Shown here: positions 8,071 through 60,363 of the stretch, piece after piece
How positions within the stretch are numbered: the stretch's first letter is position 1
How the letters are laid out: every line of letters begins with the position of its first letter
Source: Donghicola mangrovi
Lineage (GTDB): Bacteria; Pseudomonadota; Alphaproteobacteria; Rhodobacterales; Rhodobacteraceae
Reading direction: 5' to 3'
Length of the DNA stretch: 64,000 nucleotides
NCBI RefSeq assembly: GCF_013377535.1
Contig: NZ_JABCJE010000001.1
Span: 310,001-374,000 of the forward strand
Position numbers and translations under genes: made by a program
The notes under the pieces: generated by a model
Database searches by the model: none
Told to the model about the DNA's origin: nothing
What the model saw: only the letters and a program-made list of their open reading frames with translations

Positions 8071-11000
8071 TTAGGCGCTTGCAAAGCTGCTGACAGACAG
8101 CACCATGCCCACGTCCCCACCGGTCAGAATGGCGATTCCGGACAGATCGCGCATGCTGGACAGGACCCCGCGCAGCGGACGCAGCAGAACCAGCTGCTGG
8201 CCCAGAAGTTCGTCCACTGGAATGGCGCGGCGGATTTCGCCATAGCGCACAATCACATAGAGGCCGTCGGGGCTGTCGCCGATCTTGGTCTTGCCGTTGG
8301 ACAGGGGCTGGATTTTCACCAGATCCCCGTCGTCCAGTCGCAGCATCGCCATGTGACGGGCGGCAACCACGGGGACAACGTCTTTGCCCTGATGGATGCG
8401 CTGGATCGATTCAATCGGCAGCACATAGCGCACGTCACCAACCCGCACGACCATGCCATCCAGCACGATCATGTGCAGCGGCAGGCTGAGTTGGAAACGC
8501 TGTCCGCCGTTCGGCACATTAGCCGATTTCAGCGAACCGCCCTTGCGCTTGACGTCCTCGACCAGATTGCCGAATTCCTTGGACTTCTCGACGGATTTGC
8601 CGTCGTCGGTCAGTTCGACAACAACGCGGTCGTCCTCGTTCGACAACGAGATGTGGAATTTACCCGGACGCCCCTCTTCTTGCAGACGGATCGTGACCAG
8701 CGCCTTCAGGAAGTGGCGCAGATCGGTGATCATGGTCTGATCCAGAGTGATCTCGCCGCCAACCGCCGACAGACGGGCCGAGCCGCCATGTTTGCGGGCC
8801 AGCGTTTCCACGAACGATGCCAAGGGCTTGAGCAGGACGTTCGCAGGGCGCGAACGCATCGCAACGCTTTCTTCCTGAAGCTGGCCAAGCTGGCTGGCCA
8901 GCTGGGTTTCGGCTTCGGACAGCTGCTGCAGGCGGCCCATATGGTTGTCCATGATCTCGCGCAGGATGGTCCGGTGACGCGGGTTCAGGGGCGGCGCATC
9001 CGAATGCTGGATGCTCATCTCGATTTCCTGCATCAGATCGCGCATGGCCATCTGGCGCACCAGTTCCTGCACCATCGCCTGACCAGAGCTGATCTCGCCG
9101 ATGGTTTCCAGCAGGCGCAGGCCATCCCCGCCCGAGCCCATCACGACGTTAAAGTCGATCGGATCGTCGGAGTGCTTGTGCGCGCCCGCGTTCTCTTCTT
9201 CTTTGACCTCGAGGCGCACGGTGCTGAACAGCTTTTTCGCCGAGGGGTCGATCTGGATCAGGGTTTCCTGCAGGTGGTCATCCGGCAGGCTGGTCGCGAC
9301 CAGGAAGTCGAACAGCGTGATGTCGTCCTGGAACACGGTCACGTTGGTGATCATGCGGGCTTGCTTGGACGAAACCCAATCCAGGAAGGCCTGCGCGATA
9401 TCCTCGTCGTCGTTCAGGTCGGCACGGATCACCCAGAAGCTCAGGCCGTTTTCGATGGCCGACTGGGCTTTCTTGACGCTTTCCGGCGACAGAACGCGGT
9501 GGAATTCCTTGGGCAGGCCCAGACGCTGCTCGATGCTTTTCGCGGTGACCATGCCGGAGGCAAGGAAGCACACGGTCGAGGCTTCTTCGAACAGTTTCTC
9601 GATCTTGCTGGTGTCGGGGTTGTCGCCCTGATCCAGCGCGTCGAACACCAGTTCCATCGTATCAACGAAACCGCGGGCGATCTGGATCAGAATGACGTCG
9701 GGCTTGGTTCCACCCACGCGGACACGGGCGAACAAGTCGATCAGCGCCATCGTCAGCTGCGCGGCGGTTTCCATGTTGAAGTAGTTACACGCATGGAAGG
9801 CACGGCGCATCAGACCTTCGAAGCCGACGAACCAGGTTTCCCCTTGGCCGTTGTTTTCCTCGAGGCCGTTGCGCAGCTTTTGCAGGGTGTCAAAGATGTT
9901 GTCCGCACCCCAGATGCGCAGCAGTTTGGTCGGGGTCAGCAGATCGACCGGCACCGCCCCACGGGGCAGCACGGCTTCGACGGCAGCCAGTTCTTCGTAG
10001 AACTGAAGTTCGGCAGTGCGGAAGCTGTTCGCCGTGGTCGCCATCGCCAGCAGTTCGGCGGCGCGGGTCACACGGACATAGCCCTGATCCTTGACCAGAC
10101 CGATGATGGTCTGGCTCAGCGCGTCCAGTTCCTTGGGCGTGGGCTTGTCGTCGGTCGCAAAGCGCAGGCCGGTTTCCGACACACGGGTGAACAGGTCGGC
10201 CAGACCGCGCAGAACCTTGGTGGTGGGGTCCTCGGCGGGCGCAGCAGGCGCCGCAGGGGCTTCGGGTGCAGCTGCGGCCGGTGCGGGGGCCGGAGCCGCC
10301 GCAGGAGGAGCCGCAGGGGCCGCAGCCGCCGGAGCGGGCGCAGGTGCAGCTGCCGGGGCCGGAGCAGGTGCTGCTTCGGCAGCGGGGGCCGGTGCGGCCT
10401 CGGGCGCGTCATCCTCGACGTCGTCCCCGCCAATGCCCAGATCCCGCTTGCGCAGTTGCTTGACCTTCTTGACCACGTGCTTGAGCACATCGGTTGCGTT
10501 GCCGTCGGCCGCGTTCATGCGGTCCAGTTCGGTGACCCAGTCGTCCAGGCCCAGCTGTTTGGCAGCATAGGACAGACCCTTGCCCTTTTTCAGGGTGTCG
10601 GCGGGCATTTCGGCAGGTGCCTTGCCGATGGCTTCTTCCAGATAGCCAAGGGTCTCGGCGACCATGTCGCTGTAAATCTTGTGGTAAACCACGTCCTCGA
10701 GCAGACGCTTGGCCGCCTCGGAGGGGGCAGCATCCGCGGGCGCTTCAGCAGCGGCCTCGGGGGCAGGCGCAGGCTCTGCTGCCGCAGGTGCCGGAGCGGG
10801 CTCGGGCTCTGGTGCGGGCGCAGGCGCAGGTTCGGGTTCCGGCGCAGGTGCGGCTGCGACGGGTTCGGGCTCCGGTTCGGGTTCGGGGGCCACATCTGCG
10901 TTGTCGTCCATCTCGCCGAACAGGTCGTCATCGTCACCGTAATTGGTGTCGCTGTCGCCCAGATCGTCCAGCGCCGCGAACATGGACGCCATAGGGTCGG

Positions 11001-11517
11001 CGGCTGCAGGCGCCGCTGGCGCTGCGGGGGCAGCAGCCGGCGCTTCGGGCGCCGCCTCTTCGGCGGGGGCTTCGGGTTCTGCGGGGGCAGCTGCTTCGGG
11101 CTCGTCACCGCCCTCGCCTGAATACTTGGCCACCATTTTCTTCAGATCCTCGTACAGTTTCTGAGAGGGACCGGGATCCACGTCCGACCGATCAGAGGCC
11201 GTGTGATCCAGCATGCCGCGCAGGGTGTCCCCCGTCAGCATCAGGATATCCAGGATCTCGGAGTTGAGCGCGACGCCCGAGTCCCGCACCAGACCGATAA
11301 GGTCTTCGGAGACGTGCGCGCGGCTTTCTACCGTGGCAAGGCCCAGAACCCGCGAGTTGCCTTTGAAGGTGTGTACCGCACGGAACAGTGCCCCGATGTG
11401 GTCCTTCTGGTCGCCCTCGCCGTTTTGCAGCGCCTCGAGTGCCTCTTCCATAGCATCAAGGGCCTGCGCGCCGTCATCCGCGTAGAGTTCCCAGATTTCG
11501 TCCATTTCGTCGTTCAT
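8071..11517 (-). CDS. cheA3: CheA3-type chemotaxis protein: HPt (P1) and CheW-like (P5) ends around a long non-catalytic middle
   Basis: A 1148-residue CheA variant. Residues 1-~120 are an HPt domain with the phosphorylatable His49 in HTFKGNSRVLGL. Two Pro/Ala/Glu-rich linkers follow (~150-265 and ~375-435) around a His-less HPt-like bundle (~267-340). The C-terminus (~1018-1148) is a CheW-like P5 domain. No ATP-binding N box or glycine loop is present; residues ~880-1015 look like a decayed P3-P4 core. In R. sphaeroides CheA3 is phosphorylated by CheA4 and also dephosphorylates CheY6-P; both partners are encoded here. It is the last gene of a cluster in cheOp3-like order and is followed by a terminator. 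Confidence 0.9.
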   Translation of the reverse strand: MNDEMDEIWELYADDGAQALDAMEEALEALQNGEGDQKDHIGALFRAVHTFKGNSRVLGLATVESRAHVSEDLIGLVRDSGVALNSEILDILMLTGDTLRGMLDHTASDRSDVDPGPSQKLYEDLKKMVAKYSGEGGDEPEAAAPAEPEAPAEEAAPEAPAAAPAAPAAPAAADPMASMFAALDDLGDSDTNYGDDDDLFGEMDDNADVAPEPEPEPEPVAAAPAPEPEPAPAPAPEPEPAPAPAAAEPAPAPEAAAEAPADAAPSEAAKRLLEDVVYHKIYSDMVAETLGYLEEAIGKAPAEMPADTLKKGKGLSYAAKQLGLDDWVTELDRMNAADGNATDVLKHVVKKVKQLRKRDLGIGGDDVEDDAPEAAPAPAAEAAPAPAPAAAPAPAPAAAAPAAPPAAAPAPAPAAAAPEAPAAPAAPAEDPTTKVLRGLADLFTRVSETGLRFATDDKPTPKELDALSQTIIGLVKDQGYVRVTRAAELLAMATTANSFRTAELQFYEELAAVEAVLPRGAVPVDLLTPTKLLRIWGADNIFDTLQKLRNGLEENNGQGETWFVGFEGLMRRAFHACNYFNMETAAQLTMALIDLFARVRVGGTKPDVILIQIARGFVDTMELVFDALDQGDNPDTSKIEKLFEEASTVCFLASGMVTAKSIEQRLGLPKEFHRVLSPESVKKAQSAIENGLSFWVIRADLNDDEDIAQAFLDWVSSKQARMITNVTVFQDDITLFDFLVATSLPDDHLQETLIQIDPSAKKLFSTVRLEVKEEENAGAHKHSDDPIDFNVVMGSGGDGLRLLETIGEISSGQAMVQELVRQMAMRDLMQEIEMSIQHSDAPPLNPRHRTILREIMDNHMGRLQQLSEAETQLASQLGQLQEESVAMRSRPANVLLKPLASFVETLARKHGGSARLSAVGGEITLDQTMITDLRHFLKALVTIRLQEEGRPGKFHISLSNEDDRVVVELTDDGKSVEKSKEFGNLVEDVKRKGGSLKSANVPNGGQRFQLSLPLHMIVLDGMVVRVGDVRYVLPIESIQRIHQGKDVVPVVAARHMAMLRLDDGDLVKIQPLSNGKTKIGDSPDGLYVIVRYGEIRRAIPVDELLGQQLVLLRPLRGVLSSMRDLSGIAILTGGDVGMVLSVSSFASA

Positions 11518-33797: not shown

Positions 33798-34571
33798 ATG
33801 GCCCGCAAGACCTCCTCGGACGAGACCGAGATCGAAATCATCGAACCCACCGAGAATACCGAGCTTCAGGATACCATCCGGCTGGCCCTGGAGGCCGCCG
33901 AAGCCGCCAATGACGCCGCCGCCGAAGTATCCCGTCTGCAAAGCGAGACCGCCGCAGCCGCAGCCCGGCTGGACCGTTTCGGCGCAAGGCTGAGGCCCAT
34001 GATGATCGGGCTTCTGGCCGGGGCTGGCGTGTCTATCGCATTGGGCGGACTGGTTTATTTCAAAACCCTTGCCGAAATGCGCCGCACCAGCGCCACCCAG
34101 ATCGAAGCCTTGGCCATCTTTCAGGAAAGCGTCACGCAGTTGAACGGTCAGCTCGAGGCCGTCGCCGGCCTGAGCGAACGCCTGGCCAAGCTCGAGGGGA
34201 TCAACAACGATAACCGCGAGGCCATTCTGACCGAGCTGACCTCGATGCATGACCAGATGGCCAGCCAGCTTGGCGACTATTCGGATACCGCAGGCAGCCT
34301 GCAATCCCAAATTGCCACCACGCTCACCGAACGGGTCGATGCCGGAACGCAAAAGACGGTAGAGGCGATGCAAGCCGGCATTTCTGATCTACAATTGGCC
34401 CTGAGCAAGATGATCGCCGCCGCTGCTACCAGTACACCGCCGGCCGCCGCCGCTGCAAAACCGTCCGCACCGGCCCCGACCAAGCGCACGACGTCGTCGT
34501 CCAGCTCGTCCAAGAAAACCACCAAGAAACCCGCCCCCAAAGCAGAGCCCAACCCGTTCTCGTTCCCATGA
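33798..34571 (+). CDS. Single-pass membrane protein with periplasmic coiled coil and Lys/Ser tail, function unknown
   Basis: A 257-residue protein: acidic N-terminal ~25 residues, a helical stretch (LALEAAEAANDAAAEVSRLQ), one membrane helix near ~68-88 (MMIGLLAGAGVSIALGGLVYF), a long coiled-coil region (~90-210), and a low-complexity tail of Ala/Pro then Ser/Lys (KRTTSSSSSSKKTTKKPAP). ATG 33798 follows CAGGAGA. No family recognised; the layout resembles a membrane-anchored scaffold or length-sensing protein. Its sigma-54 promoter and four-base overlap with the PDZ-like gene place the pair in the flagellar regulon. Orientation of the coiled coil is inferred. Confidence 0.72.
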   Translation: MARKTSSDETEIEIIEPTENTELQDTIRLALEAAEAANDAAAEVSRLQSETAAAAARLDRFGARLRPMMIGLLAGAGVSIALGGLVYFKTLAEMRRTSATQIEALAIFQESVTQLNGQLEAVAGLSERLAKLEGINNDNREAILTELTSMHDQMASQLGDYSDTAGSLQSQIATTLTERVDAGTQKTVEAMQAGISDLQLALSKMIAAAATSTPPAAAAAKPSAPAPTKRTTSSSSSSKKTTKKPAPKAEPNPFSFP

Positions 34572-35278
34572 CAGACACGCATGACTCCGAAAAGAAAGGC
34601 TACCATCTGGCGCTGAAATCGCTGGAGGTCGGCGCGATTGCCCTGGGCCTGAAGGTCGGGGACGAGCTGATCGCGGTGAACGGATTGCCGTTCGATGGCA
34701 GCACGCAGGATTTGCACGACCGCTTCGGGCGGGGTGCGCCGACGATTGCCCTGACCTTTCTGCGCGGGGAACGCAAATTCGTGGTTCTGTCCAACACCCC
34801 CAATCTGGGAGCGTGGAAAGAGGGCCGCGAATACGACACCGAAGAAGCCGAGCAAGCCGCCCAACGCATCATTCCCGACGGGATGATCAACTGGGAGGTC
34901 TATCGCGACGCGAACGGTGTCTACGACATCCAGACCCAGAAACCCTCGACTATGGCGATCGCGCTGACCCCTTTGTGGTATGCGCAGATGCGGCTGTGGA
35001 CTCCGCTGGCGATCTGGGCCGCGACGATCATCGTGACCCTGCCCATCGGCCTGTGGGTCGTGGTGCTGACGCAGACGCTGGCTTGGTCCTATTTCTGGAA
35101 CACCGCGCCAGAGTTCTTTCGCCGTGACCGGATCGAGCGGGGCATGAGCCTGCTACAGGTCATCGCCGCCAAGAACGAGCAGCGCGTCCACCAGTATATC
35201 AAGCGCGAGTTCCCCGACATGCGCTTTGTCTACGACCCGATCCCCGAGGATCCCGCCGCAGAATTCGAGGGGCTCTAA
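34568..35278 (+). CDS. PDZ-like domain protein with membrane segments, function unknown
   Basis: A 236-residue protein. The N-terminal ~75 residues look like a PDZ peptide-binding fold (AIALGLKVGDELIAVNGLPF, then IALTFLRGERKFVVL). A hydrophobic region near ~140-180 (PLAIWAATIIVTLPIGLWVV, LTQTLAWSYFW) gives one or two membrane passes, followed by a basic helical C-terminus (KNEQRVHQYIKREFPDMRF). No signal peptide is seen, so the PDZ part is probably cytoplasmic, unusual for bacterial PDZ proteins. It overlaps the preceding gene by four bases and ends before a bidirectional terminator. Confidence 0.72.
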   Translation: MTDTHDSEKKGYHLALKSLEVGAIALGLKVGDELIAVNGLPFDGSTQDLHDRFGRGAPTIALTFLRGERKFVVLSNTPNLGAWKEGREYDTEEAEQAAQRIIPDGMINWEVYRDANGVYDIQTQKPSTMAIALTPLWYAQMRLWTPLAIWAATIIVTLPIGLWVVVLTQTLAWSYFWNTAPEFFRRDRIERGMSLLQVIAAKNEQRVHQYIKREFPDMRFVYDPIPEDPAAEFEGL

Positions 35279-35352: not shown

Positions 35353-36669
35353 TCAGTTGGTCAGTTTCGCGCGGCGCTTGCGCTGGAACGACGAAGGGAT
35401 CTTCAGCATTTCGCGGTATTTCGCGACGGTGCGGCGGGCCAGATGGGTACCCTCGTCGGTGATGATCTTGGCGATGGCATCGTCGCTCAGGGGGCGCGCG
35501 GGGTCTTCGTCTTTGACCAGTTGCTGGACGCGGTGACGGATCGCCGCCGAAGAAGCCGCTTCGTCGCCATCGGTGGACAGCGCAGTGCTAAAGAACGTCT
35601 TCAGACCAAAGGTGCCCTGAGGGGTGACAATCAGCATGCCGGTGGTCACGCGGCTGACGGTGCTTTCGTGCACGCCAACGGCCTCGGCCACGTCTTTGAG
35701 GGTCATGGGAACGATGTGCGCGGGGCCATGCTCCAGGAATTTGGACTGACGGCGAACGATCTCGGCGCCGACCAGCAGGATGGTCTGGTTGCGGTGCTCG
35801 ACCGCGCGGCGCAGCCAGCGGGCAAGGCTCAGACGCTCGCCTACAAATTCGGTTGCGGTCTTGTCGCGGGTGGCGCTTTCGGCTTTGGCCTCGTCCACGA
35901 CGACCGACGGCAGGGTCGAGCGGTTCAGGTCAACCAGCCAGCCTTCTTCGCCCTTGGACACGATCAGATCGGGTTCACGCTGCGCGATATCACCGTAGAT
36001 GAAATCGGCACCGGGCTTGGGGTTCAGACGACGCACTTCTTTCAGTTCATTGCGCAGGTCTTCCATCGAGCAACCGCAGGCGCGGGCCAGACCGTTCAGA
36101 TCGGCGGCGGCCAGTTTCGGAAGGTTCGACAGAATGCCGGACATGATCGGGGTCAGCATGCCCTTGTCCGCGGCTTGCAGGCGCAGACATTCGGCAAGGC
36201 TACGGGCGAACAGACCGGCGGGGTCTACTTGCTGGACGCGCTCCAGCATCTCTTCGGCCTCTTCCATGGTGATGGCGGCGCGGAAGGCGATATCTTCCAG
36301 GCTCTCGCCCAGCCAACCGCTGGGTTCGATGGCTTCGAGGAAACATTCCGCAACGATGCGATCGCGGGGGGTGTCGAACATCAGATCGAATTGCGCAGCT
36401 ACATGACCATAGAGGGAGGGGGCGTGGTCAGCAGCGCGGGCAGTGATGTCATCGTAATCGGTCGCGGACCGCTTCACGAGCGACGGTTCACGCAGACGAT
36501 CATTTGTGGGGCGGGCCACCTCAACGAACGGATTTTCCTCCGCCTCGGACTCGATGTAGGATTGCAGATCCGTATTGCTGAGCTGCAGCAGACAAATCGC
36601 CTGTTGAAGCTGAGCTGTCATCACGAGCGACTGACGCTGTCCGAGTTGTTGAGTGTAGCTGAGTTGCAT
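35353..36669 (-). CDS. rpoN: RpoN, sigma-54 factor dedicated to the flagellar cluster (RpoN2-like)
   Basis: A 438-residue sigma-54. The Gln-rich region I is at the N-terminus (QLSYTQQLGQRQSLVMTAQL); the core-binding region, an HTH (TLKDVAEAVGVHESTVSRVT) and the RpoN box ARRTVAKYRE (residues ~411-420) follow. The ATG at 36669 has AGGAGG upstream; the frame is open from 36693. Rhodobacter species carry several rpoN genes, one reserved for Fla1 flagellar promoters; location among flagellar genes with 14 -24/-12 elements supports the same here. The -24 recognition part of the RpoN box is intact. Confidence 0.93.
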   Translation of the reverse strand: MQLSYTQQLGQRQSLVMTAQLQQAICLLQLSNTDLQSYIESEAEENPFVEVARPTNDRLREPSLVKRSATDYDDITARAADHAPSLYGHVAAQFDLMFDTPRDRIVAECFLEAIEPSGWLGESLEDIAFRAAITMEEAEEMLERVQQVDPAGLFARSLAECLRLQAADKGMLTPIMSGILSNLPKLAAADLNGLARACGCSMEDLRNELKEVRRLNPKPGADFIYGDIAQREPDLIVSKGEEGWLVDLNRSTLPSVVVDEAKAESATRDKTATEFVGERLSLARWLRRAVEHRNQTILLVGAEIVRRQSKFLEHGPAHIVPMTLKDVAEAVGVHESTVSRVTTGMLIVTPQGTFGLKTFFSTALSTDGDEAASSAAIRHRVQQLVKDEDPARPLSDDAIAKIITDEGTHLARRTVAKYREMLKIPSSFQRKRRAKLTN

Positions 36670-36804
36670 GACGTTCCCTCCTGGATGACCCAATTAGGGC
36701 TCCAGTTAGAGATTCTCACAAGGCAGCTTATTTGACACCTAACGGTGATCCTTTCGGGTATTTTAGCAAAAAAATGAAAAAAATTTTTAATCATTGATTC
36801 AAAA

Positions 36805-42331: not shown

Positions 42332-43426
42332 TCAGTTCAGCATCGCGCCATCGCGGCTGATCGACAGCTTCTTCATCTTCTCGATCAAGGTGGTGCGCTG
42401 CAAACGCAGGGTCCGCGCCGCTTGGCTGACGCAGCCGCCATTCTTGCGCAAGGCGGCGTCGATCAGCATTTCTTCGATGTCCCGCAGGTAGCTGCGCATA
42501 TCGACGCTTTGCTCGGTGTCCATGATGGTGCGCACGGCGTCCATGCTGACCTCGGGGATCACACCGGTTTCGGGGCGGACGGGTTCGGCGGTGATGCTGG
42601 CCATGCCTTGGGTGGGCAGCAGCACGTTTTCGACAGCCTCGGCGGTGACAACGCGGCCCGCGTACAGAACGGCGGCACGTTCGAACATGTTGCGCAATTC
42701 GCGCACGTTGCCCGGCCAGTTGTGGTTGGCCAGTGCCCGCAGCGCCCCTTGGTTAAAGTGCGGAGGCATCGCGTCGGGGTTCCGATCCTGCGCGCGGCGG
42801 ATCATGGCATCAAGGATCAGCGGAATGTCATCCGTGCGCTGCACCAGAGCGGGCACGCTGACGGGGAACACGTTGATCCGGAAATAAAGGTCGGCGCGGA
42901 AACGGCCACATTCGGCATCGGTCGCCAAGGCGCGGTGGGTCGCCGTCACCAGACGGAAATCAACCTCGATCTCGCCGCGGCCACCGACACGCTGGATGCG
43001 GCGGGTTTCCAGAACACGCAGCAGTTTGGCTTGCAGCGCCAAGGGCATGTCCCCGATTTCGTCCAGAAACAGCGTTCCGCCTTGGGCCTGCTCGATCCGC
43101 CCAATCCGGCGCTGGTCAGCACCGGTAAAGGCACCCTTTTCATGGCCAAAGAGTTCGGATTCCAGCAGGTCCGCAGGAATGGCGGCGCAGTTCACGGCCA
43201 CCAGCTCGCCTGCGCGGCCCGACGCCTTGTGAAGAGCTTCACAGACAAGTTCCTTGCCCACGCCGGTTTCGCCCTGCACCATCACAGGGGCTTCGGTGGG
43301 TGCCACGACGGACAAAACCTGCTTGAGCTGCAGCATGGGGGCGGAGCGGCCGATCAGGATACGATCCAGTACAGAGATATTCTTGGCGTCTACTTCACTT
43401 ACAGCGGCTTGCCAGTACTGGGTCAT
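42332..43426 (-). CDS. fleQ: FleQ-like sigma-54 activator with Fis-type HTH
   Basis: A 364-residue activator without an N-terminal receiver. The AAA+ domain starts almost at once: Walker A GETGVGKE, the sigma-54 loop GAFTGA intact, Walker B GGTLFLDEIGDMP, arginine-finger region FRADLYFRINVFPV, and [15 protein letters not shown]. The C-terminus carries a Fis-like HTH (GGCVSQAARTLRLQRTTLIE). In R. sphaeroides FleQ lacks the receiver too and acts with FleT. The ATG at 43426 is preferred (GAGG nine bases upstream); a TTG at 43447 is in frame. Confidence 0.93.
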   Translation of the reverse strand: MTQYWQAAVSEVDAKNISVLDRILIGRSAPMLQLKQVLSVVAPTEAPVMVQGETGVGKELVCEALHKASGRAGELVAVNCAAIPADLLESELFGHEKGAFTGADQRRIGRIEQAQGGTLFLDEIGDMPLALQAKLLRVLETRRIQRVGGRGEIEVDFRLVTATHRALATDAECGRFRADLYFRINVFPVSVPALVQRTDDIPLILDAMIRRAQDRNPDAMPPHFNQGALRALANHNWPGNVRELRNMFERAAVLYAGRVVTAEAVENVLLPTQGMASITAEPVRPETGVIPEVSMDAVRTIMDTEQSVDMRSYLRDIEEMLIDAALRKNGGCVSQAARTLRLQRTTLIEKMKKLSISRDGAMLN

Positions 43427-43580
43427 TTTCTCGTGCCTCGGTAACAATTCCTACTTACACGCTAAATTTACCGACTCGTTCCGGTGGGCTGATAGCCGCA
43501 CAATGGTTTTTTTAGATCGCCGAAGGGGTAGGTTCGGAAATCAATGGGCCGTTAGATATCCACAGACCTGACCTGAGGGG
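43427..43580. other. Non-coding region between fleQ and sltF
   Basis: 154 bases. On the minus strand it is the fleQ leader and carries no sigma-54 or sigma-28 element that I can see, consistent with fleQ being a top-tier gene expressed from a housekeeping promoter. sltF ends at 43581 without an obvious hairpin terminator. Confidence 0.4.
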
Positions 43581-45681: not shown

Positions 45682-48600
45682 TCACAGTGCGTTGATCAGG
45701 GTGTCGAACAGGGCTCGGGCCACCGAGATGATCTGCGCGTTCGCCTGATAGGCCTGTTGTTGCGAAATCAGGTTCGCGGCCTCTGTATCCAGATCAACGG
45801 CACTAACCTTGGCTTCTGCAGCCAGAGCGCTTTCTAACAGCGAATTTGCCGTCGATTTTCTGTTCTCGGCGCCAGAAACCTTGCCGCCGACATCGGTGAC
45901 CATCTCGTTGAAGATGGCGGTAAAGCCACCCAGCCCGCTGTCCAGGTTCCGCATTTGCAGGTCAGCCAGCTTTTCGACCGTGCGGGCGTCGGCATAGTCG
46001 GGCTGCGCCGGATTTATCTGGAAGCTGTCGCCGGTGATATACCCCGCCGAGAACGTGACGCTGTAATGCCCGATCTGCGCGTTGCCGTTTTCGTCCAGCG
46101 CACGGCGGGCGATCTCGTCGCCGGTTTCGGTGTCGTACAGACCCACCAGCCCGTTATCCGCATCCAGAATACGCACCTCGACCGAGCGGTCGGCCTCTTC
46201 GAGAATGCGGGGGGTGACGTCGGCGGTCAGCTTGGTCGCGCCGTTCGATCCCATGGCCACGATGAACTGCTCGTTCGGCAGGCCACTCAGGGTCAGGCGG
46301 CGGCCCGAGGCCTGCATTTCCCCGGTGATGTCCAGAATTCGGTTATCGGCCGAGCGCACCTCGAGCGAGCCATCGTCGGTCACCAATAGGCTGGTGTCCG
46401 AGGTCTGGAAGCCCAGCAGCCCTGCGCCTGCCTGCGGGGGGAAGTCGATCTCGCCCGAGCCGGCGGGCGGCGTGATGGTGATCTTCTGTGTCGCGGCGTC
46501 ATAGCTGACCGTCCCCGGAAAGCCGACCGAACTGGCCGAGATCGACCCGTTGCCCGCGTTGTTCGCCCGCAGCACATAGGCCGTGCCGCCAAGGGTAAAG
46601 TTCACCGCATGGGGTCCCAGCGGCAGGGTGTCAATGTTGATCTCGCCGCCGGTGGTCTGCTTGGTGATCAGGTTGGTCGCCCCCATGCCAAAGGCCGCCG
46701 CGTTGCCCGGGCTGGACGAAACCGCCAGCATCGCGCCATCGAACGCGCCATCGGTGGTCTCGACCACCAGCTTGTTCGAGGCATCGAAATAGGCGGTCAC
46801 CATGCCCTTTTCGGGGCCGGTCACCACGGGTTCGCCATCGGTCATGGTGATCGCATAGGTCTGGTCCCCCAGATCCACACGCATCATGGTGCCGTTCGCG
46901 GGAATGTTGGCCACGGCCTCGCCCGTCATCCGGCTCGAGGGGGACTGCGCCCGCAGCGCCGACGCCATGCCATAGGCCGCGTCCACATCATCAACCGCGC
47001 CAAACTCGGCGGGGTCGAAAGTGGCGCTCAGGGTGCCGACGGTGGGGTCCTCAATGTTCAGGGTATAGAAGGCCGAGCCCGCGGTCTGCGTCAGGCCGTC
47101 ATCGGACGGACCATCCAGCGCCGCGTCATAGGCAAAGCGGAACACCTGAGTCGCGCCTGCATCCTGAATCTCGCGGGTCGCACGGCCCCCGTTAAAGGGG
47201 TCAGCCTCGGCCCCGATGGACAGGGCCCCTTCGGACACGCTGAAGTCATCCTGCGCGGCGACCGAAACGGTGCCGACCGCGCGCAAGGTATCCAGCCCCG
47301 ACGCGCCCAAAGACGTGGTACCAAGGCCGAAGGAATTCCCGAACTCGTCCACCTTGTCCACGACCATCGAGCCGCCGGTGCTGTGGGTAAAGACCGAGAT
47401 GTTGATGTCTGCGCCGGTGTCGCTGGTCAGTATCAGACGGCCTGCCGACGGATCAATCGACGCCGAAATCCCGGTCGAGGGACTGGCAAGGTTGATCGCC
47501 TGCGCCAGCTCGGTCACATCGCCGCCATAGACATCCGCGTCGATCTGGAACGGCGAGACGTTGTCGCCCTGCAGCTTGAACCGGACTTTGCCGTCATCGG
47601 GGAAGGCCAGCGAAATATCGGTGCGCGCGGTGACGGTGCCGTCGACCTCGGTGCGCATCAGGTCGGCCATCTGCTGGGCACTGGACCCTTCGGGCACGTT
47701 GATCAACCCACCGCCCAAGGCAGTCACGTCCAGCGTCACCGCAGGAGTGATCGCCGCCGTGTCATAGGTGGCCCACGCTTGCAGACCCACGGTTTCGCGC
47801 AGGGTCGCCACATAGTTCCCCGTCGCGCTGGACTGGGTCATGGTGATGCCGCGATAGCCGTCGGGGTTGTTCAGGTCGGCCATGCGATAGGTCGCGCCGG
47901 GCTGGAACCCGTTGGCCTCGATGATAAAGGCTTCAGCCTCGGCGGGGTCCAAGGGGGCACCGGCAATCTGCAGACCGTCACGGGTGAACACCGCGATATC
48001 GGCAGCCAGTTCGGGGTCGGCCAGAATGGTGGCGCTCGAGGTGCCAGCCCCGTTGGTCATGGTGGCGGTCACGCTGGTGCTGGCTCCGGCAACCTCGAGC
48101 ATCAGCTCGGAGCCCGAAATCATGACCCGCCCGCCAAGGCTGCTGAGCCGCTCGCCGTTGGCATCCAGAATGGTGCCATCATTGATCTGAGCGACAAAAT
48201 CCGCCTGCGTCTGGAAGGTGTCGGGGATGAACTCGTGCAGGGTTCCGTCGATCGTCACCTTCAGCGCACCGATGTCGCTGCCGTCCACGGCAAACGACAG
48301 GCTGGCCTGACGGTCCATCGACGCCAGCGTAAAGGTCTCGGTCCCCGAGGGGATCACGCCCACCACGCCCGCCGACAGGAATTCGGTGGCGGTCAGGGCA
48401 GAGCTGCCGGTCAGGGCGGACATCTGCCCAACGGTGGTAATCTCTTCGTCCGAGCGGGCCACGACGATCTTGGCGTTGCCCAGATTGCCGCCCGCAGGCG
48501 TCACGGTCGAGGCCGAGGCACTGGCGATGCGCTCGGGCTTCGAGATCAGGAACGCCAGATCAGAGGCGTTGCCCTCGCGGCGGGTCAGGTCGATGCGGTC

Positions 48601-49803
48601 ACCGTTAAAGGGCTTGCCCGCCAGACTGATCACCATGCCCGGCAGCGTGATCTGCGTATCCCCCGAGGCGATTTCCGCGCCATCGGGGTCGTATACCTTC
48701 CACAGACCGGCCAGACTGTCGCGCACCAGATCCAAGGGGCCTTCGGGCATAACGGTGGGGTCGGTCACGGTAACCTCGGCCACGCCGGTCCCGCGGTTGA
48801 TCTGAGAGGACTGAACCTTCCAGCCTTGCAGGGCGAACAGGTCGCCGCCGGGCAGACCGTCCAGATCGACGCCCTCGTTGTGGATCGCGTTCATCTGGGC
48901 CGCGATGGTCTGCGCCCAGTCGTTCAGGTCATTCAGCGCCGAGCGAATGACACCCACAGCCGTCGACAACCCATAGAGCGAGCCGCCAGACACCGTGCGG
49001 GACTGGGCCTCTTCGGTGGGGTCCTGCGGGATGATCCGCACACGGTCCGCATTCACCTGCTGTAGCTGAGAAACGTTGTCTTCTTCGATCAGAACCAAGC
49101 CGCCGGGGTTCTTGCCCCAAGTAACGGTCATCAGGTTGTGGTCGTCGAACTCGACGTTGATGTCGTTGATCTTGGCCAGATCGACCAGCAGCTTGTCGCG
49201 GCGGTCGAACAAGGGGTTCAGCGCGCCGGTGTCCTGAGTCACGGCGACCTTCTGCTGGATTTCCCCCAGCTCTTTCAGGATCAGGTTGGCCTGATCGATC
49301 TGCAGGGCGCCGTCCTCGGTGGTGACGGCGATCATGTTCTCCATGTCGGCGGCCAGCGATTTGACCCCTTCGACAAAGGAATTCGCGCCGTCGATCATGA
49401 TGGTCCGCAGACCCACGTCCACCGGATCCCCCGCAACCGAGGCGATGCCGTCAAAAAAGTTGTCCATCATCTCCAGCACGCCGCCGGGCTGCGGGGTCAG
49501 CCGCGCCTCAAGCAGGTTCAGGGGCGGCAGGGCAGCCTCCTGCACCTCGACTGCGCCAGAGGCCGTGCGGACCCGTTCAGCCAGAATGCCGTCGAACGCG
49601 CGCTTGATCTCGGACACGGTGACACCCTGCGACTGGGTGCCCGCGTGGATAGGACTCATTTTGCCGCCGCCGATTTCCTCGGTGACGGCAATGCGGCGGT
49701 GATAGCCCTCGGTGTCGGCGTTCGCGATGTTTTCCGACGTGACTTGCAGTTTGGCCTGGGCCGCGCGGATGCCGCTGCGACCGATGTCCAGAATGCCGCT
49801 CAT
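45682..49803 (-). CDS. flgK: FlgK, hook-associated protein 1, unusually long
   Basis: A 1373-residue FlgK; enteric FlgK is about 550. The N-terminal D0/D1 domain is canonical: SGIRAAQAKLQVTSENIANA with the rod/hook motif ENIANADTEGYHRRI. The C-terminus also is: AEAKVSAVDLDTEAANLISQ and QAYQANAQIISVARALFDTL. Between (~350-1230) lies a long beta-rich, Asp/Gly/Thr-rich insertion with several TFTLASM/ITMTQSS-like strand repeats, presumably surface domains. R. sphaeroides FlgK is similarly enlarged. It overlaps flgJ by four bases. Confidence 0.93.
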   Translation of the reverse strand: MSGILDIGRSGIRAAQAKLQVTSENIANADTEGYHRRIAVTEEIGGGKMSPIHAGTQSQGVTVSEIKRAFDGILAERVRTASGAVEVQEAALPPLNLLEARLTPQPGGVLEMMDNFFDGIASVAGDPVDVGLRTIMIDGANSFVEGVKSLAADMENMIAVTTEDGALQIDQANLILKELGEIQQKVAVTQDTGALNPLFDRRDKLLVDLAKINDINVEFDDHNLMTVTWGKNPGGLVLIEEDNVSQLQQVNADRVRIIPQDPTEEAQSRTVSGGSLYGLSTAVGVIRSALNDLNDWAQTIAAQMNAIHNEGVDLDGLPGGDLFALQGWKVQSSQINRGTGVAEVTVTDPTVMPEGPLDLVRDSLAGLWKVYDPDGAEIASGDTQITLPGMVISLAGKPFNGDRIDLTRREGNASDLAFLISKPERIASASASTVTPAGGNLGNAKIVVARSDEEITTVGQMSALTGSSALTATEFLSAGVVGVIPSGTETFTLASMDRQASLSFAVDGSDIGALKVTIDGTLHEFIPDTFQTQADFVAQINDGTILDANGERLSSLGGRVMISGSELMLEVAGASTSVTATMTNGAGTSSATILADPELAADIAVFTRDGLQIAGAPLDPAEAEAFIIEANGFQPGATYRMADLNNPDGYRGITMTQSSATGNYVATLRETVGLQAWATYDTAAITPAVTLDVTALGGGLINVPEGSSAQQMADLMRTEVDGTVTARTDISLAFPDDGKVRFKLQGDNVSPFQIDADVYGGDVTELAQAINLASPSTGISASIDPSAGRLILTSDTGADINISVFTHSTGGSMVVDKVDEFGNSFGLGTTSLGASGLDTLRAVGTVSVAAQDDFSVSEGALSIGAEADPFNGGRATREIQDAGATQVFRFAYDAALDGPSDDGLTQTAGSAFYTLNIEDPTVGTLSATFDPAEFGAVDDVDAAYGMASALRAQSPSSRMTGEAVANIPANGTMMRVDLGDQTYAITMTDGEPVVTGPEKGMVTAYFDASNKLVVETTDGAFDGAMLAVSSSPGNAAAFGMGATNLITKQTTGGEINIDTLPLGPHAVNFTLGGTAYVLRANNAGNGSISASSVGFPGTVSYDAATQKITITPPAGSGEIDFPPQAGAGLLGFQTSDTSLLVTDDGSLEVRSADNRILDITGEMQASGRRLTLSGLPNEQFIVAMGSNGATKLTADVTPRILEEADRSVEVRILDADNGLVGLYDTETGDEIARRALDENGNAQIGHYSVTFSAGYITGDSFQINPAQPDYADARTVEKLADLQMRNLDSGLGGFTAIFNEMVTDVGGKVSGAENRKSTANSLLESALAAEAKVSAVDLDTEAANLISQQQAYQANAQIISVARALFDTLINAL

Positions 49804-56057: not shown

Positions 56058-56441
56058 TTATTCTCCTCTGATCGCGGACTGCAGCCCGGCGATCCTGCGG
56101 TTCAGCAGGGTCAGGCTGGCCTGATACCGCTGCGTGTTCTCCGAGAATTCCATTTGTTCGACGGCCAGTTCGACAGTGTTCCCGTCAAGCGCGGGGTTGA
56201 TGTTCTGGCGGTACACCAGCCCTTGTTTCAGGCCGCCCCCCGTCGAGAAGTGCTGATCATCGCTGGCACGCAAATTGCCATTGCCCTGCGCGCGATCCAG
56301 CGCGCTGGCAAAGTCGATATCCCGTGCCTTGAACCCCGGTGTCGCGGCGTTCGCGATGTTCGAGGCAAGGATATTGTTGCGGCGTTCACGCAGCACCAGC
56401 GCATCTGCGTGCAGGCTGATATGGTTGCGTATTCCCGTCAT
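56058..56441 (-). CDS. flgB: FlgB, proximal rod protein
   Basis: A 127-residue rod protein: [20 protein letters not shown] and [20 protein letters not shown], ending [20 protein letters not shown]. The minus-strand frame is open far upstream (to 57506) but that part is a shadow of the repeat gene; the ATG at 56441 follows GAGGACCGG and lies just downstream of the sigma-54 promoter. It leads the leftward hook/rod operon. Confidence 0.95.
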
Positions 56442-56491: not shown

Positions 56492-56507
56492 TGGTCTGGG
56501 AATTGCA
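56492..56507 (+). promoter_or_regulatory. sigma-54-like promoter of the DPFAAF-repeat gene
   Basis: Reads TGGTCTGGGAATTGCA: TTGCA -12 box and correct spacing, two mismatches in the -24 box (TCT for CAC). It shares four bases with the minus-strand flgB element. It lies 41 bases before the ATG at 56548. Confidence 0.5.
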
Positions 56508-56519
56508 AGTGCCATGCCA
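56504..56519 (-). promoter_or_regulatory. sigma-54 promoter of the flgB operon
   Basis: On the minus strand: TGGCATGGCACTTGCA, perfect -12 box and spacing, one -24 mismatch. It lies 63 bases before the flgB ATG. Confidence 0.78.
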
Positions 56520-56547
56520 AATGACAGCAACGCGGCAGGAGCACGGT

Positions 56548-59500
56548 ATGACCTCGGCCAAATCGGATAGCGCAGACGGGAAAAGCGGCGGCGGACGCAA
56601 GATCAAGCCGGTGCGCAAGATCCTCGACAAGATGCGCGGCGTCGACCCCATGAGCGGGGCCGAGGCCTTGGCCGATGTATACGAAGAAGAAAAAGACGCT
56701 GCCCGCCGCAACCTTCTGATGCAGGCGCGCCTGAAGCTGTTGCAAGATGCCCTGAAGGGCGAACAAGAGCCGCCCAAGCCCAAAAAGAAAAAGACCCCCA
56801 AGCCCAAGCCGGAGCCCGCGCTCGAAGCCGAGCCCCTGCCCGAGCCAGAACCCGCGCCGCCGCCCGCACCGAAAAAAGTGCCAAAGCTGGATATGCTCGA
56901 CCTGAGCGATCCGTCGGTCTTTGACGTGTTCGGCGCTCTTGATGCGGACGACGACGAGGACGAAGCCCCCGCACCCGCTGCCAAGCCAGCCCCTGCCGAG
57001 GAAGAGGCCCCCGATCCCTTTGCTATGCTGGCCGACATCGGCGACAGCCAGAGCGCGAGCGACGATCCCTTCGCCGCCTTCGATGACGCGGACGACCCGT
57101 TCGCGGCCTTCGACGCCACGACCCCGCCCAAAGCCCCTGCACCCGCCCCGGCCGCGGCCAAACCCGCCATGGACGACGATCCCTTCGCCGCCTTCGGAGA
57201 ACTGCTGGACGACGTCGACAAACCCGGCCCTGCGGCGATGGACGACGACCCGTTCGCTGCCTTTGCGGACGAAGACGACCCATTCGCGCCCTTCGAAGCA
57301 GACGCCGCCCCCTTTGAAAGCCCAAAAGAAGAGTCTGAACAAGAGGACCCCTTCGCCGCCGTCGCAGACGACGACCCGTTCGCAGCTTTTGATGAAGCCG
57401 CGGCAGAGCCAGAACAGGAAGAAATTCCGGTAGCAGAAAGCCTCGCCAACCCTGAGGAGGACCCCTTCGCCGCCCTAGCAGACCTGACCGGAGACACTGC
57501 CGTCAACGTCGAGGGCGATGAAGACCCCTTTACGCCCTATGCACAGGAAGACGCTGCAGTGCGCCCCACCTCCTCGGCCCTCGAAGCCTTTGCGGCATCG
57601 GGAATGGCAGCCCTGTCGGACGATCCGGAGGAAAAGGCCCCGGAAAAGGCATCCAGCCCCGAGGACACCGTTGGTGAAGTCGATCCCTTCGCAGCCTTCA
57701 CTGATGGCGACGACCCGTTTGCAGCCTTTGATGGGCCAGACGAAGACGCAGAAACCAAAGCGCTCGCCGAAAACAACGTAGAGCCCCGGAGCGCCGAGCT
57801 TTCGGAGGAAGCACCCGCGCTAGAGCCAAACGCAGATCCCTTCGCCGCCCTAGTGGACGAGGACGATCCGTTCGCACCCTTCGAAGCAGAAGCAGCACCC
57901 ACCGAAGTGGCGAAAGAAGAGTCCAAACAAGAGGACCCTTTCGCGGCGTTCTCGGACCACGACCCGTTCGCAGCCTTCGACGATCCCGAGGCAGAGCCAG
58001 AACCGGAAGAAATTACGGTAGAAGAAAGCCTCGCCAACCCTGAGGAGGACCCCTTCGCCGCCCTCGCAGACCTGACCGGAGACACCGCCGTCAACGTCGA
58101 GGGCGATGAAGACCCCTTTGCGCCCTATGCACAGGAAGACACTCCAGTGCGCCCCGCCTCCTCAGCCCTCGAAGCCTTCGCGGCATCGGGAATGGCAGCC
58201 CTGTCGGACGATCCGGAGGAAAAGGCCCCGGAAGAGGCATCCAGCCCCGAGGACACCGTTGGTGAAGTCGATCCCTTGGCAGCCTTCGCGGACGAGGACG
58301 ATCCGTTCGCACCCTTCGAAGCAGAGGCTGCCCCCGCCGAAGTTGCGAAAGTAGAGCCTGAACAAGAGGATCCCTTCGCTGCATTCTCGGACGGTGACCC
58401 GTTCGCAGCCTTCGAAGAACCCGAGGCAGAGCCAAAACCGGAAGAAATTACGGTAGAAGAAAGCCTCACCAACCCTGAGGAGGACCCCTTCGCCGCCCTC
58501 GCAGACCTGACCGGAGACACCGCCGTCAACGTCGAGGGCGATGAAGACCCCTTTGCGCCCTATGCACAGGAGGATGCAGCAGTGCGCCGCACCTCCTCGG
58601 CCCTCGAAGCCTTTGCAGCATCGGGAATGGCAGCCCTGTCGGACGATCCGGAGGAAAAGGCCCCGGAAGAGGCATCCAGCCCCGAGGACACCGTTGGTGA
58701 AGTCGATCCCTTGGCAGCCTTCGCGGACGATGACGCGGACGAGGACGATCCGTTCGCACCCTTCGAAGCAGAAGCAGCACCCACCGAAGTGGCGAAAGAA
58801 GAGTCCAAACAAGAGGACCCTTTCGCGGCGTTCTCGGACCACGACCCGTTCGCAGCCTTCGACGATCCCGAGGCAGAGCCAGAACCGGAAGAAATTACGG
58901 TAGAAGAAAGCCTCGCCAACCCTGAGGAGGACCCCTTCGCCGCCCTCGCAGACCTGACCGGAGACACCGCCGTCAACGTCGAGGGCGATGAAGACCCCTT
59001 TGCGCCCTATGCACAGGAAGACACTCCAGTGCGCCCCGCCTCCTCAGCCCTCGAAGCCTTCGCGGCATCGGGAATGGCAGCCCTGTCGGACGATCCGGAG
59101 GAAAAGGCCCCGGAAGAGGCATCCAGCCCCGAGGACACCGTTGGTGAAGTCGATCCCTTGGCAGCCTTCGCGGACGAGGACGATCCGTTCGCACCCTTCG
59201 AAGCAGAGGCTGCCCCCGCCGAAGTTGCGAAAGTAGAGCCTGAACAAGAGGATCCCTTCGCTGCATTCTCGGACGGTGACCCGTTCGCAGCCTTCGAAGA
59301 ACCCGAGGCAGAGCCAAAACCGGAAGAAATTACGGTAGAAGAAAGCCTCACCAACCCTGAGGAGGACCCCTTCGCCGCCCTCGCAGACCTGACCGGAGAC
59401 ACCGCCGTCAACGTCGAGGGCGATGAAGACCCCTTTGCGCCCTATGCACAGGAGGATGCAGCAGTGCGCCGCACCTCCTCGGCCCTCGAAGCCTTTGCAG

Positions 59501-60363
59501 CATCGGGAATGACCGCTCTGTCGGAAAATGCAGGAGAAACTGCGCCGGAAGAGTCATCTAGCCCCGAGGACACCGTTGGTGAAGTCGATCCCTTGGCAGC
59601 CTTCACAGAAGACGAGGGCGACCCGTTCGCAGCCTTCGACGATCCCGAGGCAGACACAGAACCGGACGCGGCCGTAGCTGAAGCAGAAAATGAAGAAAGC
59701 CTCGCCAACCCTGAGGAGGACCCCTTCGCCGCTCTCGCACACCTGACCGGAGACACTGCCGTCAACGTCGAGGGCGATGAGGACCCCTTTGCGCCCTTTG
59801 CACAGGAGGACGCCGCTGTGCGCCGCACCTCCTCGGCCCTCGAAACCTTCGCGGCGACGGGAATGGCCGCCCTGTCGGACGATCTGGAGGAAAAGGCTCC
59901 GGAAGAGGCATCCAGCCCCGAGGACACCGTTGGCGAAGTCGATCCCTTCGCAGCCTTCACCGAGGATGATCCCTTCGCGCCTTTCGAAGAAGAAGAGCAC
60001 ACTTCAGAAGTTATGGACCAAGACCCAACCCCATTCACTGCCCCCGTCAAAGACGCCGAGGCATCGTCGCCCGCCCCCAAGGCCGCTCCTCAGGAACTCA
60101 CGCGGCTTGAGATGTTGCTGCTGAAGAAACTCGCGACCGGCAAGAAGATCCCGGATGCGATCAGTCGGGATGCTCTGCGCGATATTCGTGTGCACGGGCC
60201 TGCGCCAGAGCCGGAACCCGAGCCTTTGGCGCCCGAGGCGGAGGCGGAAACCGGGGTGGAGGCTGCTGATGATACCCAGCCGGAACCGAAGGTTCAGGAG
60301 GCCCCCGCCCCTTACAAGGACAAGTCCGCAGACTACTGGAACTACGACATCTTCGATGACTGA
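56548..60363 (+). CDS. Giant acidic DPFAAF-repeat protein divergent from flgB, function unknown
   Basis: A 1271-residue, very acidic protein. N-terminus (~1-75): basic helical head ([35 protein letters not shown]), then a Pro/Lys/Glu linker. From ~110 to ~1165 it is low-complexity with dozens of DPFAAF, DPFAPF and DPFAAL motifs in Asp/Glu-rich spacers. Six large modules begin with [20 protein letters not shown], at nucleotides ~57447, 58035, 58470, 58917, 59352 and 59706. The C-terminus has a short helix ([20 protein letters not shown]) and ends [13 protein letters not shown]. No signal peptide or membrane helix. ATG 56548 follows GCAGGAG; an in-frame ATG at 56521 sits at the predicted transcription start. 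No family recognised; it looks like a disordered multivalent scaffold. Confidence 0.85.
57855..59509 (+). repeat. Tandem 882-bp duplication inside the repeat gene
   Basis: Bases 57855 to ~58627 recur at 58737 to ~59509 with an 882-base offset; every segment compared by eye was identical. 882 is divisible by three, so the frame is kept. Lower-level repeats of ~435 and ~447 bases make up the unit. Confidence 0.85.

Follow-up and report, generated by a model that had tools for sequence, protein, structure and literature searches.

The closest described system is the flagellum of Cereibacter (Rhodobacter) sphaeroides known as 'Fla1'. The accessible text of PMC12363192 names this type fla3 and counts 23 fla3 clusters among 306 Rhodobacterales genomes; the four conserved proteins of unknown function that it describes belong to another flagellum type. 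In the RNA-seq table of PMC9779115, as far as that source is accessible, RSP_0083 is flgB and RSP_0084, which follows the fla1 genes, is a hypothetical protein with log2 changes of 2.86 (UdsC overexpression) and -1.81 (deletion), against 4.65 and -2.19 for flgB. No functional study of RSP_0084 was found in the accessible text of the literature that mentions it. In C. sphaeroides, CheA3 both phosphorylates and dephosphorylates CheY6, the only motor-stopping CheY, according to the accessible parts of PMC6829392 and PMC9198570. Here we describe a gene of Donghicola mangrovi that diverges from flgB in a 64,000-nucleotide stretch of contig NZ_JABCJE010000001.1 (positions 310,001 to 374,000; hereafter the window) and encodes an acidic protein of 1271 residues. 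Comparison across genomes gives good support to its apparent membership of a conserved, flagellum-linked and previously unstudied family; a literature search, with subscription papers mostly outside its scope, found no description of this family.

The gene and its control region comprise the following features, given in window coordinates:
56058-56441, minus strand: flgB, 127 aa, first gene of the rod/hook operon.
56492-56507, plus strand: putative sigma-54 core towards the 1271-aa gene, TGGTCTGGGAATTGCA (TGG-N8-TTGCA, GG-N10-GC), with 9 of 12 consensus bases; GG in register in 70/86 flgB loci.
56503-56508, no strand: TTGCAA palindrome, the -12 box common to both sigma-54 elements; TTGCAA in 72/86 loci.
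56504-56519, minus strand: putative sigma-54 core of the flgB operon, TGGCATGGCACTTGCA, with 11 of 12 consensus bases; TGCA-N7-TGCC in 86/88 loci.
56548-60363, plus strand: flgB-divergent coding sequence, 1271 aa, ATG at 56548 and stop ending at 60363, assigned from its translation and family membership.

The first-pass annotation began its feature at 56492, which is the first base of the plus-strand sigma-54 element; coding starts at 56548, and 106 bases separate the start of flgB from the divergent ATG. The protein itself, including a head modelled with AlphaFold2 (AF2; predicted local distance difference test, pLDDT), is built as follows, all on the plus strand:
56602-56763: conserved three-helix head, residues 19-72, AF2 pLDDT 92-97 over residues 21-70.
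56764-56877: linker, Lys/Pro-rich and then Pro/Glu-rich, residues 73-110.
56878-56964: first hydrophobic-acidic motif, residues 111-139; short relatives have counterparts of it, and AF2 models it as a weak helix.
57013-59985: acidic tail, residues 156-1146, with 42 DP[FL]xx[FLYV] motifs and the 435-bp tandem array.
60088-60201: C-terminal segment, residues 1181-1218, genus-specific (2/189 genomes).
60313-60360: acidic-aromatic C-terminal tip.

The tail holds 42 DP[FL]xx[FLYV] hexamers, 37 of them of the form DPF[AT][AP][FLYV], whereas 1000 residue shuffles averaged 0.35 DP[FL]xx[FLYV] hexamers, with 3 as the highest count. These hexamers are 8 peptides encoded by 22 different DNA 18-mers, so that many of the differences between copies are silent. 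Part of the tail is a tandem array (57835-59639) with about 4.1 copies of a 435-bp unit, a copy number that may be collapsed in this assembly of 63 contigs. Net charge is -271 over residues 141-1170 and +6 over residues 1-110, and AF2 places the helices of the head at residues 21-28, 34-47 and 51-73. Both the acidic chain with dozens of DPF-type motifs and the basic helical head that the first-pass annotation had read from the sequence were thus borne out. The Eps15/epsin DPF/DPW tails of eukaryotic endocytosis likewise carry numerous DPF-type motifs on a disordered acidic chain, a likeness of analogy only. Pfam and NCBIfam scans of the protein returned zero matches over cut-off, in keeping with the earlier remark that it is not a flagellar component that can be named. 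Its maximum 19-residue hydropathy mean is 0.88, with no obvious membrane stretch. A secreted or membrane protein was rejected from hydropathy only, with no signal-peptide program, as just one of the 87 family members collected below (L077, 1.62) exceeds 1.6.

The gene shares its control region with flgB. That the two genes diverge and that the -12 boxes of their sigma-54-like elements overlap had been noted before, and TTGCAA is indeed part of both elements. GG-N10-GC sites scoring at least 9 occur 36 times on the two strands of the window (13 score at least 11), so the plus-strand element by itself is unremarkable; it is conservation across genomes that lifts the pair beyond chance. The flgB core was located in 86 of 88 flgB loci (exceptions L121 and L122), and in 70 of these 86 promoters the GG of the plus-strand element is in register (68 TGG; CGG in L043 and L102), while TGG at any other offset within 6 bases occurs in 0-7 promoters. 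Ten of the 16 other promoters have a separate plus-strand element scoring at least 9; L062 was mis-registered by the promoter regular expression, and its shared box is likewise without GG. Columns flanking the elements vary among the loci, which are related by descent, so that the promoter counts are not independent events. The composite pattern TGG-N8-TTGCAA-N6-TGCCA was matched in 15 of 198 genomes of the same taxonomic family, 10 of them at the flgB promoter (10 of the 13 genomes with this FlgB type), and its backwards control in 3/198. GG-N10-GC cores in both directions, conserved in relatives, thus give good support to a predicted divergent sigma-54 promoter region of the kind first proposed, and we infer that both promoters are in use.

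The same position is occupied by related genes elsewhere. We assembled 88 flgB loci of the C. sphaeroides 'Fla1' ('fla3') type (80, the window and 7 further ones, after removal of five same-genome duplicates, L034, L037, L038, L040 and L041), with the reading frames of L044, L047 and L122 picked by hand. A divergent open reading frame (ORF) with a related three-helix head is present at 87 of the 88, L121 being without one; the head alignment is weak in L083, L116 and L122, and L072 and L124 are cut by contig ends. The linkage to flgB that had been put forward as a check on the first reading is therefore general among these loci. Four of the loci (L065, L092, L118 and L121) are filed under Flavobacteriaceae, Arcticimaribacter and Beijerinckiaceae metagenome-assembled genomes (MAGs); L065, L092 and L118 are possibly mis-binned contigs of alphaproteobacteria, and the neighbour in L121 differs.

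Searches of whole genomes gave a similar picture. A first search with the N-terminus matched 3 of the 198 genomes of the taxonomic family, one of which (G161) again adjoined flgB. A FlgB search matched 129/198 at E ≤ 0.001, 13 of these at E ≤ 3.5e-34, and the genes adjoining flgB in such genomes were found to have a common head. A profile of 48 heads then matched 13/198 at E ≤ 6.7e-10, always beside flgB and in the same 13 genomes with this FlgB type; the next best value was 0.0026, and 20/198 fell at E ≤ 0.01. As 11 of the 13 genomes had supplied rows to the profile, its informative part is the absence from the other 185. Among 337 genomes of the class, nine heads matched at E ≤ 0.001 and eight of them diverge from flgB (the own genome included; G499 is probably the L098 genome, being identical over the 95 residues compared). 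The ninth, L134, has no flgB at its locus and was read as a chance match, and a phylum search (2/299 genomes) returned the own genome and one match read by eye as ribosomal S15-like. Homologues mainly away from flagellar loci, which the first-pass annotation had named as evidence against its reading, were not what we found: the strong head matches lie beside flgB.

With a head hidden Markov model (HMM) built from other Rhodobacterales, Donghicola excluded, the window protein came out as the top match among 1054 window ORFs (E = 6.9e-13). Its head shares 81% identity with that of D. eburneus, but the arrays of the two proteins are built differently. The C-terminal helix, which had looked conserved at first reading, is not conserved beyond the genus: its segment was found in 2/189 genomes of the taxonomic family (the own one and D. 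eburneus, G039), and we rejected it as a family marker. Three relatives had no Pfam match over cut-off, and 34 relatives run against NCBIfam gave one weak match of a single member, to a dioxygenase model (E = 0.0043). RSP_0084 resembles the window gene in its locus number beside flgB (RSP_0083) and in moving with the fla1 genes (PMC9779115, accessible part); this likeness is one of locus number and expression.

The head is the only constant part of the family. One group adds a small beta domain (beta form), the other a Pro/Glu linker and a hydrophobic-acidic motif (motif form). The beta domain was detected in 56 of the 87 proteins at E ≤ 1e-3, 33 of which had seeded the profile, and the 31 without it include four that are cut or short (L072, L100, L123 and L124). 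Beta-less proteins carry the linker and a motif like KL..MDL.DPSMMALFGELGDSSGDDDFGDFD, and in L036 and L047 beta domain and motif stand together. We link the two forms because of their position, their promoter, these two proteins and the profile intermediates L088, L069 and L096, which score about 1e-5 in a set of 24 proteins. Luteovulum azotoformans (L047), related to C. sphaeroides, shares with the window the head, the motif and a divergent promoter of the shared-box kind; its protein differs from the window protein in its length of 269 aa, in retaining the beta domain and in lacking a DPF array.

Motif-form proteins range from 140 to 1454 aa, many relatives having 140-250 aa; the shortest complete members, of 140-156 aa, are L063, L062, L093, L075, L035, L079 and L049. 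Motif number per protein runs from about 1 to 42, and the repeats are the lineages' own: DPFAAF (42 in the window protein, 30 in D. eburneus), DLAALM (L048, L088 and L096), DLSDMMAAF (L061) and HMAFLTASD (L056). In the giant DPF tail a short motif has expanded in a lineage-specific way, and giant size is the exception in the family. Could the tail be a fast-evolving low-complexity spacer that docks nothing specific, so that only the head, or the head with the beta domain, matters? The spread of lengths, the lineage-specific sequence and a tandem duplication that is still visible would suit such a spacer. We give it little credence, as the 42 motifs are kept as 8 peptides despite 22 DNA versions and the hydrophobic-acidic motif recurs C-terminal to the linker in the aligned motif-form relatives.

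AF2 modelled L060 with pLDDT 96-98 for the head and about 93 for the small beta domain. The best fold match of the head was YmgB (Z 6.2 and 7.6), within the range that the tool calls common, and a Foldseek search with L060 gave none at E ≤ 0.001. GINS, phage gpFI and ribosomal L9-type domains matched the beta domain at Z of about 5-6, which is not decisive. A PDB sequence search (best E 0.018, nucleoporins) was rejected, as was a short-motif HMM that suffered from composition bias and did not even list the window protein. A lone DPF-like motif also occurs beyond the motif-form group, at the C-terminal ends of two beta-form proteins, L109 (EEGIDPLANR) and L112 (EEGIDPFANR). At some beta-form loci (L039:6159-6515; similarly L040, L044 and L045) the divergent gene is followed by one for a protein of about 117 aa that has a single hydrophobic stretch at its N-terminal end and a sequence pattern resembling RFEHRT..C.NP.IGPFE; a Pfam scan of the L040 protein up to E 10 gave no match. 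A regular expression for a one-membrane-helix protein downstream matched 3/87 loci and was too strict to conclude from.

A promoter region in common with an operon of exported rod/hook proteins, and the lack of any stretch hydrophobic enough for a membrane helix, would also fit a type III export helper that uses its tail to bind rod/hook subunits or FlhA/FlhB and to keep them at the export gate. This role would explain co-expression with flgB, yet we consider it distinctly improbable: motif number varies from about 1 to 42 whereas the cargo should be constant, and the link to CheA3 described below is left unexplained. In enterics the divergent gene is one of FlgM, FlgN and FlgA; we rejected these for the window protein, for which Pfam gave nothing over cut-off. 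L041 has a separate gene for FlgM, hence the protein is not FlgM, and a 98-aa neighbour there, guessed as FlgN, has no FlgN match.

The protein might instead be a scaffold, akin to PopZ, TipN or HubP, by which the flagellated site (pole, subpole or basal body) is marked or organised; this is close to what the first-pass annotation proposed. The head would oligomerise and the tail form a condensate that recruits clients, for example FlhF. A helical head with a Pro/Glu linker and an acidic tail, a promoter in common with early rod genes, the co-regulation of RSP_0084 and the restriction of the head protein to one flagellum type within the taxonomic family (13/198 genomes) all speak for it. PopZ combines a helical element with a Pro/Glu/Asp-rich region and is similar in this respect; gene linkage, repeat motifs and the absence of a Pfam match over cut-off set the window protein apart. 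No landmark family appeared in the Pfam scan, in which the presence of each of the PopZ, TipN and HubP models was unchecked, and the best head fold match (Z 6.2) is to common arrangements. Several relatives of 140-160 aa have one motif, which is little for a condensate, neither Pfam nor NCBIfam gave a match over cut-off, and the CheA3 correlation is not predicted. On balance we regard a site scaffold as unlikely, if the best of the alternatives considered so far.

A second gene of the window may bear on the tail:
10903-10998, minus strand: linker motif of a CheA3-like protein, residues 174-205, DPMASMFAALDDLGDSDTNYGDDDDLFGEMDD, in the coding sequence 8071-11517 (minus strand).
By eye, DPMASMFAALDDLGDSDTNYGDDDDLFGEMDD is close to the repeat of the 1271-aa protein. 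A full-length CheA3-like match (E ≤ 4.9e-166) was present in 7 of 8 motif-form genomes and in 0 of 5 with the beta form only; four of the other six genomes had weak partial matches only (best E 1.7e-10 to 4.9e-6). Fifty further genomes, grouped before the search and drawn from 58 loci with 8 beta-side ones left out, gave CheA3-like matches at E ≤ 1e-20 in 18/20 motif-form genomes (one of which, L047, has both beta domain and motif) against 0/30 beta-form genomes. Pooled, CheA3-like proteins co-occur with 25/28 motif-form and 0/35 beta-form genomes, a correlation confounded by descent, gene neighbourhood and incomplete genomes.

The motif itself was compared with shuffled sequences. When CheA3 cores were aligned to the tail protein of their own genome, shuffles did as well in 7/400, 9/400, 31/1000 and 14/400 cases in four genomes of a first set, and in 3/300 and 15/300 cases in two genomes of a second set of five. 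Across genomes, values of at most 15/300 were reached in 20/85 comparisons with motif-form tails (own ones included) and in 2/55 with beta-form tails. The linker was unreached in L052, L088 and L096. We rate the apparent similarity of the two motifs as moderate. CheA3, a split CheA in C. sphaeroides, and the window protein are not homologous and would have a short motif only in common, with moderate statistics. The C-terminus of CheZ and the N-terminus of FliM are CheY-docking peptides, the CheZ tail (LLDSLGF) being the part that binds CheY. They too are short, amphipathic and acidic: CheZ of E. coli K-12 ends in VDDLLDSLGF and the family member L102 in ALFDQLGDSFGDWDE, and FliM of the window begins MAKATKLSSFEVAALVDGLKNLDDDAGD. 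These comparisons with CheZ and FliM were made by eye only, and a chain with up to 42 copies is unlike either. The resemblance to the CheA3-like linker would point to docking in chemotaxis or at the motor as much as to the rod/hook scaffold first proposed.

The reading that we favour, with confidence a little short of even, is that the protein is a cytoplasmic accessory of the sigma-54-controlled (C. sphaeroides Fla1-type, 'fla3') flagellum, with a tail that serves as a multivalent docking array, possibly for a CheY. It would be made together with the rod/hook operon, because two sigma-54 promoters lie back to back on one -12 box; this geometry is observed, and it suggests that the holoenzyme may sit on only one side at a time. 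The three-helix head probably oligomerises or anchors the protein. The acidic tail would be a disordered arm whose many short amphipathic-acidic peptides dock one or more soluble partners with high avidity; such multivalent docking is likely, given the conservation of the motif, its silent codon variation and its separate expansions. Among possible partners, a CheY-type regulator of the CheA3 pathway is the most specific candidate: CheA3-like proteins encoded in the same clusters often hold a peptide similar to that of the tail, placed between their histidine domain and the remainder of the chain, and this peptide resembles the CheZ tail. The tail would then concentrate or buffer the regulator near the motor. 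In its strongest version, dozens of CheZ/FliM-like peptides would capture a CheY-type stop signal beside the motor and compete with, or hand over to, FliM and CheA3; we hold this version to be rather unlikely, slightly more so than the site scaffold.

Several observations weigh against the docking-accessory reading. The binding partner of the tail is putative, a hypothesis drawn from motif resemblance. Six of 86 promoters have no plus-strand element of any kind, and a head HMM restricted to beta-form proteins misses the window protein (E = 7.1). CheA3 was not found in three motif-form genomes (G117, L056 and L076), many of the beta-form genomes are small MAGs or single-cell genomes, and in 6/7 genomes CheA3 and flgB share a contig, 42-45 kb apart; the correlation may be plain co-inheritance. 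The CheA3 motif cores were picked by eye. In two of the six genomes of the first set shuffles matched as well in 964/1000 (G027) and 598/1000 (G051) cases, in the second set L093 (56/300), L051 (93/300) and L061 (252/300) were no better than shuffles, and a single protein, L076, accounts for 5 of the 20 low values. With a position-specific scoring matrix (PSSM) built on the family motif, the window motif is recovered (rank 3) and the CheA3 motif is not; the CheA3 protein ranks 27th of 553 through another stretch. Full CheA3 linker alignments are dominated by low-complexity Ala/Pro/Glu runs. Nine CheA3 linkers showed no motif by eye (G104, L069, L070, L077, L116, L102, L057, L083 and L122), and it is weak in those of G051 and L047.

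By best NCBIfam or Pfam match, the flagellar cluster of the window encodes FliF, FliG, FliH, FliI, FliK, FliL, FliM, FliR and FlhB, as well as PomA/MotB, FliD, FlgL, FlgK, FlgI and FlgH. Two regulators lie among these genes:
35353-36693, minus strand: rpoN (sigma-54), the sole PF04552 match of the genome (match 35374-35847), inside the flagellar cluster.
42332-43447, minus strand: sigma-54 activator with Sigma54_activat and HTH_8.
FlgK (45682-49803, minus strand) is 1373 aa long, its conserved ends enclosing a very long middle part; the accessible part of a C. sphaeroides review mentions a prominent HAP region. Between flhB and rpoN, two plus-strand ORFs (33798-34571 and 34568-35278) matched no curated family over cut-off. 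A hydrophobic stretch lies near residue 75 of the first one, whose position fits MotF, as a guess only; in the accessible part of PMC9779115, RSP_0067 is next in number to flhB, RSP_0066.

These data appear to place an unstudied protein family in the core of a well-studied flagellum type, that of C. sphaeroides Fla1. If the tail docks CheY or another motor partner, the family would offer a natural valency series for relating motif number to signalling or assembly. Were it a CheY docking array, copy number would tune signal buffering and the motor response would be set by repeat number, for which we know of no precedent in other chemotaxis systems.

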